Part shown: positions 6,436-9,565 of the stretch, piece by piece
Numbering within the stretch: the first letter of the stretch is position 1
Layout: every line of letters begins with the position of its first letter
Assembly (NCBI GenBank): GCA_020352775.1
Contig: CP070684.1
Location: 882,378 to 916,323 of the forward strand
From: Candidatus Omnitrophota bacterium
Lineage (GTDB): Bacteria > Omnitrophota > Gorgyraeia > Duberdicusellales > 4484-171
Reading direction: 5' to 3'
Length of the DNA stretch: 33,946 nucleotides
Translations under genes and position numbers: made by a program
Notes under the pieces: generated by a model
What the model was told of the DNA's origin: nothing
What the model saw: only the letters and a program-made list of their open reading frames with translations
Database searches by the model: none

Positions 6436-7783
6436 GGATGACTTCCTCCATAACAATATTAATATCTACTGCGCCCAGCCCCAACACGATATCTCCCTCT
6501 TTAATATCAGGCAAAATCTCTTCCTTTAATCTGTCTTTAGGAATATAGCAAACCTTATCACCGTATTCTTTCCTAATCCCCTCAGTCAAGAATTCTGAGC
6601 TTACTCCCTCAATTATTTCCTCGGAGGCAGCATAAATATCAGTCACTATGATCCGGTCGGCACCTCCAAAGCAGGTTGAGAATTCATTGTACAAAGACTT
6701 TACACGAGAAAAGCGATGCGGTTGAAAAACAGCAAATACTCTTTTGGGATTTAAATAACGCGCTGCTTTTAACACGGCCTGAATCTCAGTAGGATGATGC
6801 GCATAATCATCAACAAACATCACTCCTGCTACTTCTTTCTTAAACTGAAAACGCCTCTTAGTTCCTTTAAATTCTTTAAGGACACTGGCTATTCTTTCCA
6901 TATCTACCCCAAGATAAAACAGAGATGCCAGGACACCTAAAGTATTAAGGATATTATGTTCTCCCAAAAGGGGCACCTTTACGGGCATAACAAACTTATC
7001 TTCAACAATAAAAGAAAAACAACTACAACCGGCTTCAATCGATAACTCTTCGGCTCTTACCTGGTTATCTTTGCCAAACCCAAAACTTATCCCGCCCACC
7101 GCAGAAAGTATCTGTTTAACCTGGGGCTGATCTGCCCATCCAAATACATTTTCGCGTGTTTGGGAGGCAAACTTTAGAAAGCTTTCAGTCAGATTTTCCA
7201 TAGTTTTATGGTAATCAAGATGTTCGTAATCAATATTGGTAATGATCGAAGTCCAGGGTTTGCAGTACAAAAAGGAGCCATCGCTTTCATCGGTCTCAAT
7301 AACAAAATAATCCTTACCCCACCAGGCGTTGCGCGAATAATTAAGAGGCAGCCCTCCCACAAAAACCGTAGGCTCAAAACCAAGACCAATCAATAGATGC
7401 CCCATTAAAGAAGTAGTGGTGGTTTTACCGTGACTCCCTGCGATTGCAATGGATTTTTTATCTTCACAAAGAGACCCTAAAAGCTCCCCTCGCTTTAACA
7501 CCGGAATGCGCCGGTTACGCGCCTCTAAAATCTCAGGGTTATCGCCCTCTATTGCGGAAGAATAAGCAACCAGCTCAACGTCAGATGATAAATTTTGTGC
7601 GCGTTGGCCAAGAATTATATTAATCCCTTCCTCCTCCAGCATTTTTGTGTTCGCGCTCTCTTTAAGGTCAGAGCCGCTAACCCGAAGACCTTTCTCTTTA
7701 AGGAGTAGAGCCAATCCGCTCATGCCTATTCCACCGACACCGACCAAATGGATATTTTTTACTTTTGATAAAATCTTTTCCAT
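6404..7783 (-). CDS. murC: UDP-N-acetylmuramate--L-alanine ligase
   Basis: This 459-residue Mur ligase adds L-alanine to UDP-MurNAc, the first step of the peptide stem. The N-terminal Rossmann motif is HLVGVGGIGMSGLA (residues 12-25). The ATP P-loop is AGSHGKTTTT (115-124), and the MurC-specific DDYAHHPTEI lies near 326-335. The length matches the family. The start overlaps the end of the peptidase-like gene by 25 bases, and the end overlaps murB by 32 bases, so all three are probably read from one messenger. Confidence 0.96.
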   Translation of the reverse strand: MEKILSKVKNIHLVGVGGIGMSGLALLLKEKGLRVSGSDLKESANTKMLEEEGINIILGQRAQNLSSDVELVAYSSAIEGDNPEILEARNRRIPVLKRGELLGSLCEDKKSIAIAGSHGKTTTTSLMGHLLIGLGFEPTVFVGGLPLNYSRNAWWGKDYFVIETDESDGSFLYCKPWTSIITNIDYEHLDYHKTMENLTESFLKFASQTRENVFGWADQPQVKQILSAVGGISFGFGKDNQVRAEELSIEAGCSCFSFIVEDKFVMPVKVPLLGEHNILNTLGVLASLFYLGVDMERIASVLKEFKGTKRRFQFKKEVAGVMFVDDYAHHPTEIQAVLKAARYLNPKRVFAVFQPHRFSRVKSLYNEFSTCFGGADRIIVTDIYAASEEIIEGVSSEFLTEGIRKEYGDKVCYIPKDRLKEEILPDIKEGDIVLGLGAVDINIVMEEVIREFDKNRAKA

Positions 7784-8562
7784 TGCCGCTCTAAATCATT
7801 CATATTTCTTAAGGGGTGAAACCCTTTAGATAAAGATTTTTCGAAATCATCACCAGTTCTTAAGAAAAATAAAAACCGTGAAAAACGGTCCCGACCGTAA
7901 CGCTTAATGAGAAAATGAACAATAGAAAATGACTCTAGATAAAACCGCTTCACATAATCTTCGGATTTTCCCTGTAACTCTGGGGCGCTAAGTTCACCTA
8001 ATTCTGAAAGCGCAATATAACTATCAGTGCTGATTAATCTCTTAAGAATTCGCAGCTGGTTTCGATAGGAAGTGGTATTATACTTATCCTCAATATACAT
8101 TGCAATCGCTTCATCAAGCCATAACGGGAGTCTGCCCCAACCAGCATATTCTCTGAAGATAATATGAGCTAATTCATGCGCAAACATCGAAGAGATATTT
8201 TTTTGACCGGGATAAGTATAAATGAGCTTACCATGATAATTCACACAGGCGCTGGACCAGGGCGGACACTCAAATCTATTTAAGTAGTCATCTCTATCCT
8301 TAGCAATAAATACCTGAGCTCTATTTTCCCAGAGCCAGAGCTCATCCCGCACGAGCTTAAACTCCTGAGTTATTTTGCGATATAACTCTTCACACATATT
8401 TTTTACTTTACGAACATACTCATGCTTTATATCGGGATGATACTGGATGATAAAGTGATCGGTGCGCAGCTCTATTAAGTCTCGCGCAAAAGAGATCCCG
8501 TTAGGCGCAAAACAGACTGACAACATACTACAACAAATCAGTGATTTTAGTAAACTCCTCAA
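7759..8562 (-). CDS. Secreted zinc metallopeptidase, peptidase-MA-like
   Basis: This 267-residue protein has a signal-peptide-like N-terminus with Arg2 and Lys6, a hydrophobic core to about residue 20, and a possible cleavage after SFA at 24-26. HELAH at 129-133 is the zinc-binding HExxH motif, and LPLWLDEA at 146-152 supplies the distal glutamate (Glu151). That layout fits the gluzincin-type peptidase MA-like group. No PDZ or peptidoglycan-binding domain is visible. The substrate is unknown; a periplasmic role in wall or envelope protein turnover is inferred from its place between murG and murC. The start is a TTG with GGGAG six bases upstream; an in-frame TAG at 8566-8568 rules out a longer start. 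It overlaps murC by 25 bases. Confidence 0.75.
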   Translation of the reverse strand: MRSLLKSLICCSMLSVCFAPNGISFARDLIELRTDHFIIQYHPDIKHEYVRKVKNMCEELYRKITQEFKLVRDELWLWENRAQVFIAKDRDDYLNRFECPPWSSACVNYHGKLIYTYPGQKNISSMFAHELAHIIFREYAGWGRLPLWLDEAIAMYIEDKYNTTSYRNQLRILKRLISTDSYIALSELGELSAPELQGKSEDYVKRFYLESFSIVHFLIKRYGRDRFSRFLFFLRTGDDFEKSLSKGFHPLRNMNDLERQWKRFYQK

Positions 8563-8653
8563 ACCCTACTCCCAGCTTTATTTTTCCTAAATTGTCTGTC
8601 ATTTTTTGCCGCAACTCAAAATGAGAAATAATCTCTTCTGTGGTACGCAGGAA
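8528..8653 (-). other. murG 3' remnant after an in-frame stop
   Basis: Directly after the TAA of murG (8654-8656), the same frame stays open for 41 codons to a TAG at 8528-8530. The conceptual peptide (FLRTTEEIISHFELRQKM, then TDNLGKIKLG and on) reads like the amphipathic C-terminal helices of MurG. Adding it would give a 345-residue MurG, close to the family length. It would also overlap the next gene by 35 bases, like other junctions in this cluster. Confidence 0.65.
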
Positions 8654-9565
8654 TTAATCAAATAAGAACTTATCCTGTAAAAATACACGGGCTGATTCTC
8701 TCTCCTCTAAATAAAACGCATTATCCTTCTGATGCCCTCCGGCCAAAGGATGGGGAATTAAAATCGAGGGCACTTGATAATAGGTGAGCTCTCCTACGGT
8801 AGAGGCGCCGGCGCGCGAAACTACTAAATCTGCTGCGCTGTAAAGGACCTCCATAGGATAGTAGAAATCTTTTACAAAGCTTTTTGCCTCCATCTTCTTA
8901 TATATTTGGGAAATTTCAAAGTAATCTCTCTCACCGGTAAGATGAATAAACTGGCACTTCTCTCTCAAGTGAGGAATTAGCTCGATCATAATCCTGTTAA
9001 GAAATGACGAGCCCTGGCTACCCCCGAAACAAAAGATTACCGGCCGCCCGTCAAACCCAAGCATTTCCTTGGCTTTAGTTTTGTCTATTTTTTTGATATT
9101 GTCCCGCAAAAGAATTCCAATCGTCTTTGAATTTTTAATTTCTCTTTCTTGAGGGAAGCCGAACAGCACCTGCTTTGCAAAAAAAGAAAGCACTTTATTT
9201 GCCTTTCCGAATTTAGCATTGGGTTCATAAATCGCAGTATCGCGGCCAAAAAAAGAACTGAAAAGAAGAAGAAAGAAACTATCGCGGCCCCCAAACCCGA
9301 TTACCTTTTGAGGCCTTAATCTAACAAGTAAATAAAGCGCTTCAAGCATTCGCCACGGTATCTCAAAGAATAAAATTCGCAAAGGAAAACTCTTACCGAA
9401 AACAGTAAACCCTTCGTTTTTCAGATAATCTCTAAAGACAGCTGCAGTAGCGAAATAATAAATTTTACTCTCGTCCTCACCAAAAATATGGCGCATTTTC
9501 TTGCCGATCGCAAGGGCAGGAAAAATATGGCCGCCACTTCTTTCACAAACCAATAATACCTTCAT
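8654..9565 (-). CDS. murG: MurG lipid II synthase, C-terminally truncated by an in-frame TAA
   Basis: MurG transfers GlcNAc from UDP-GlcNAc to lipid I to form lipid II at the inner face of the membrane. Visible motifs are the N-terminal SGGHIFPALA (residues 10-19), GFGGRDS, YEPNAKFGKAN, the FGGSQGSSFLN loop, SRAGASTVGEL and GGHQKDNA. These cover both GT-B domains. The frame stops at 303 residues, whereas family members usually have about 350-360. The missing part is the final helices, and matching sequence continues in frame after the TAA. The ATG overlaps the ftsW stop in an ATGA. Whether the short form is active, or the stop is a sequence error, cannot be decided here. Confidence 0.9.
   Translation of the reverse strand: MKVLLVCERSGGHIFPALAIGKKMRHIFGEDESKIYYFATAAVFRDYLKNEGFTVFGKSFPLRILFFEIPWRMLEALYLLVRLRPQKVIGFGGRDSFFLLLFSSFFGRDTAIYEPNAKFGKANKVLSFFAKQVLFGFPQEREIKNSKTIGILLRDNIKKIDKTKAKEMLGFDGRPVIFCFGGSQGSSFLNRIMIELIPHLREKCQFIHLTGERDYFEISQIYKKMEAKSFVKDFYYPMEVLYSAADLVVSRAGASTVGELTYYQVPSILIPHPLAGGHQKDNAFYLEERESARVFLQDKFLFD

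Follow-up and report, generated by a model that had tools for sequence, protein, structure and literature searches.

The window analysed here is a stretch of 33,946 nucleotides from a Candidatus Omnitrophota genome. On its minus strand lies a murG open reading frame (8654–9565), which starts with ATG at 9565 and is closed after 303 codons by a TAA at 8656–8654. MurG is the UDP-GlcNAc:lipid I GlcNAc transferase, a member of the GT28 family that adds GlcNAc to lipid I and so forms lipid II. Past the TAA, which stands in the place of codon 304, the same frame continues for 41 codons (8531–8653), FLRTTEEIISHFELRQKMTDNLGKIKLGVGFEEFTKITDLL, and then reaches a TAG at 8530–8528, the expected natural end of the gene; the relatives stop within a few codons of this point. 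With the stop read through, murG has 345 codons. This arrangement had been described in the initial annotation, and its coordinates and codon counts were confirmed.

The gene sits in the order murE-murF-mraY-murD-ftsW-murG-murC-murB-ddl, as known murG genes do, and the genes for peptidoglycan synthesis and division around it in the window, named by sequence recognition rather than each by an HMM, are open. The next gene, on the same strand, encodes a Peptidase_MA_2 protein (7759–8562) and is also found beside murG in most relatives. Its first TTG (8562) lies 35 bases inside the restored murG. In many loci of the relatives the candidate start of the downstream gene is similarly placed, about 32 bases inside murG (position −32), so the 35-base overlap, which the initial annotation had pointed out, is normal for the family.

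The identity of the protein was examined with domain and family models. Both GT28 domains, the N-terminal (PF03033, Glyco_transf_28) and the C-terminal (PF04101, Glyco_tran_28_C), were found above the Pfam gathering score, and the truncated protein matches both of them too. TIGR01133 was the best NCBIfam match, with 180.5 bits for the read-through protein and 172.7 bits for the truncated one; neither form reaches the equivalog cut-off of 250.25 bits, which for the read-through protein we attribute to the divergence of the lineage. No second copy was found in the genome, and murG is thus single copy.

Conservation of the C-terminus among relatives

The read-through protein was searched against 58 related genomes and matches were obtained in 55 of them, most of the same-family matches spanning residues 1 to 338–345 with no internal stop. 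In all 27 same-family relatives aligned at position 304 the codon is a sense codon (for K, E, D, N, Q, S or R), the gene is full-length, about 40 residues follow before its own stop, and that stop, a TAA, TAG or TGA, is at the expected end. Two further relatives have no aligned residue at this position and are outside the 27: in L019 murG runs off the end of a contig, and in L031, which belongs to another family of the same order, the C-terminus is longer and divergent. A wider search of genome contigs gave one weak and partial match only, to an Aestuariivirga locus.

Several relatives have GAA, CAA or AAA at codon 304, and a change of one base, as had been proposed, is the simplest account of the stop. 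The alignment also agrees with the view that 345 residues is the family length. We looked for relatives whose MurG ends naturally at this point and found none. The homology of the 41 codons to MurG C-termini is clear from the alignment and from the conserved residues: F305, the first residue past the stop, does not vary in the alignment, and R319 and F338 hardly vary.

Signs of decay behind the stop, as would be expected in a pseudogene, were not found in the tail. Its mean identity to the relatives (residues 305–345) is 0.34, compared with 0.33 among the relatives themselves; for the body of MurG the corresponding values are 0.51 and 0.50. Only one of the 43 invariant columns is broken in the murG of the window (P152L), and leave-one-out controls lose 0–2. 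The tail is thus conserved to the same degree as in intact relatives and has not decayed, from which it follows that the lesion is very recent, or is absent from the organism, or that the tail is still translated.

The residue of the broken column is encoded by codon 152 (9110–9112), a CTT for leucine, where 26 of 26 compared relatives have proline. This could be another base error or a genuine substitution.

Predicted structure and the part removed by the stop

An AlphaFold model was made of the read-through protein, with an arbitrary glutamate at codon 304 and an alignment of 26 rows. The mean pLDDT was 91.8 and the pTM 0.89, and over residues 291–330 the pLDDT was about 97. The top six PDB matches of the model were all MurG, with TM-scores of 0.78–0.83, and the MurG proteins of A. 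baumannii, E. coli and P. aeruginosa came first. The protein thus resembles known MurG (PDB 1f0k, 3s2u, 7d1i) in its fold as well as in its two GT28 domains and its best family match; it differs from them in that the assembled reading frame ends 41 codons early and in that even the full protein scores below the TIGR01133 cut-off.

In the model the tail forms the helices 302–314, 316–328 and 335–339. The stop falls at the beginning of the first of these, inside the helix and not at a domain border, so that this helix is cut and the other two are lost; the reading frame as assembled lacks the C-terminal helices. The GGH motif at residues 11–13, E259 and Q279 are all upstream of the stop and are kept, and H13, E259 and Q279 are invariant. 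In E. coli MurG, donor binding and catalysis are carried out by residues of the GGH loop and by one Glu and one Gln in the C domain. For the related enzyme Agl24 a predicted C-terminal helix has been reported to touch the N-terminal part, and the C-terminal helix of Alg13 mediates its joining to Alg14 (PMC8993221). By analogy with these helices, a truncated MurG would be expected to be impaired.

Assembly state and other nonsense codons

The genome record is counted as one contig of 1,275,236 bases, with a stated completeness of 84.6. The 714 kb sampled contain 31 gaps, each of them a run of exactly 100 N. Two of these gaps, at genome positions 882,278–882,377 and 916,324–916,423, border the window, which coincides exactly with a single contig. 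The 'single-contig' genome is a gapped scaffold in which 100-N runs link many contigs; the order of these contigs may not be real, and the draft is most likely metagenome-derived. The sole 16S rRNA match (L143, genome 338,984–340,257) stops at a 100-N gap, before position 1215 of the 1533 in the model, and is a contig-edge fragment. Among the 40 tRNAs found there are none for Ala-TGC, Ile-GAT, Thr-TGT, Gly-TCC, Tyr-GTA or Asn-GTT, which were probably lost in assembly gaps.

Other genes interrupted by a nonsense codon were sought with a codon-usage score on either side of an in-frame stop with no nearby start, followed by inspection by eye. The scan covered 714 kb, about 56% of the genome, with a simulated sensitivity of about 51%, and left three cases: murG, a gene of an M16 peptidase and a gene of a TPR-repeat protein. 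The M16 peptidase gene (L075:8291–9571, genome 870,690–871,970) is split by a TAG (L075:8717–8719, genome 871,116), with Peptidase_M16 before the stop and Peptidase_M16_C after it, and in each of the 29 relatives read this position encodes an amino acid. Similarly, the TPR gene (L142:323–2044, genome 955,322–957,043) is split by a TAA (L142:626–628, genome 955,625) with TPR domains after it, and all ten relatives read have a sense codon there. Both lie on contigs other than that of murG. The three cases fall on neighbouring stretches of the scaffold, parted by the gaps that flank the window, and we draw no inference from this. When 400 kb from two relatives were scanned in this way and inspected by eye, no clear case was seen, which is too little sequence for a significant difference.

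A search of 634 kb for frameshifts brought up none that was convincing, and an indel error profile of long reads was rejected on this ground. The one candidate, judged by eye, seems to be a histidyl-tRNA synthetase gene whose start codon is unusual, and it was dropped. Systematic miscalling at GATC was also considered, as the stops in murG and in the M16 gene both follow GAT. The frequency of GATC is 0.53 of expectation and near that of the relatives (0.59), so the motif is not globally lost; miscalling of this kind is also opposed by the stop in the TPR gene, which has a different context. In the literature nothing directly usable was found on the rates of such errors in metagenome-assembled genomes.

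Interpretation of the stop in murG

It seems likely that the premature stop is a consensus or assembly error, or a base from a minor strain, in a gapped draft genome. One contig would carry an isolated nonsense change of a single base that arose as such an error or came into the consensus from a minor strain, and the organism most probably has a normal MurG of full length, about 345 residues, and makes use of it; we infer that most cells lack the stop. This reading agrees with the undecayed tail that keeps F305 and its other conserved residues, with the sole murG among open cell-wall and division genes and intact relatives, and with the gapped assembly, its two more isolated nonsense codons and the absence of a convincing frameshift. 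Against it stands the local context of the TAA, GATTAATTCC, which is not obviously error-prone, and three nonsense codons in the scanned part of the genome, at that sensitivity, could also be reached by real pseudogenes or recent mutations. The lesion is like isolated nonsense errors, minor-strain bases and young pseudogenes of draft genomes, with one stop in an otherwise intact and undecayed frame, no relative sharing it, a gapped assembly and two more cases in the genome. Unlike a typical tolerated pseudogene it hits an essential single-copy gene, and an error is therefore likelier than a tolerated pseudogene.

Less probable, though to be taken seriously, is a genuine nonsense mutation that is very recent and has been fixed in the sequenced strain; cells would then live with a 303-residue MurG of reduced activity, or would be rescued by low natural readthrough. 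The stop is, after all, present in the assembly, the genome has further isolated nonsense codons, and the presumed donor-binding and catalytic residues are all retained in the short protein. On the other hand, murG is single copy here and in E. coli has been described as essential (PMC2170320), the deleted helices are predicted with high confidence in a fold that matches solved MurG, and the tail is undecayed with no relative ending in the same way. That a lineage has adapted to the truncation, with a working short MurG and the tail as dead sequence, is very improbable: the two Pfam matches of the truncated protein would fit it, whereas the normal conservation of the tail, its retention by relatives in many genera and a cut within a helix speak against it. 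Programmed readthrough or recoding of TAA to yield the full-length MurG would explain the apparent selection on the tail, and we give it the least chance of all. TAA is the commonest stop, ending 205 of the 363 complete long reading frames in the sample, which bears out the objection to general recoding already made in the initial annotation; no tRNA that reads a stop codon is among the 40 found, although in a gapped scaffold a missed tRNA is conceivable; and a stop conserved at codon 304, a sign of readthrough, was seen in none of the 27 aligned relatives. Readthrough as a conserved device is for these reasons unlikely. The four options listed in the initial annotation are thus narrowed, with readthrough or recoding and a short MurG of the lineage now unlikely, an error or minor-strain base the more probable account and a real recent mutation the less probable one.

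It is improbable that the living organism truly carries TAA as codon 304 of its sole murG and either copes without the C-terminal helices or translates past the stop. A stop that proved genuine and fixed would mean that an essential cell-wall enzyme works without these helices, or that the organism reads through TAA. The main message is that this draft genome holds a few isolated nonsense codons, which would lead to falsely truncated genes in its annotation.
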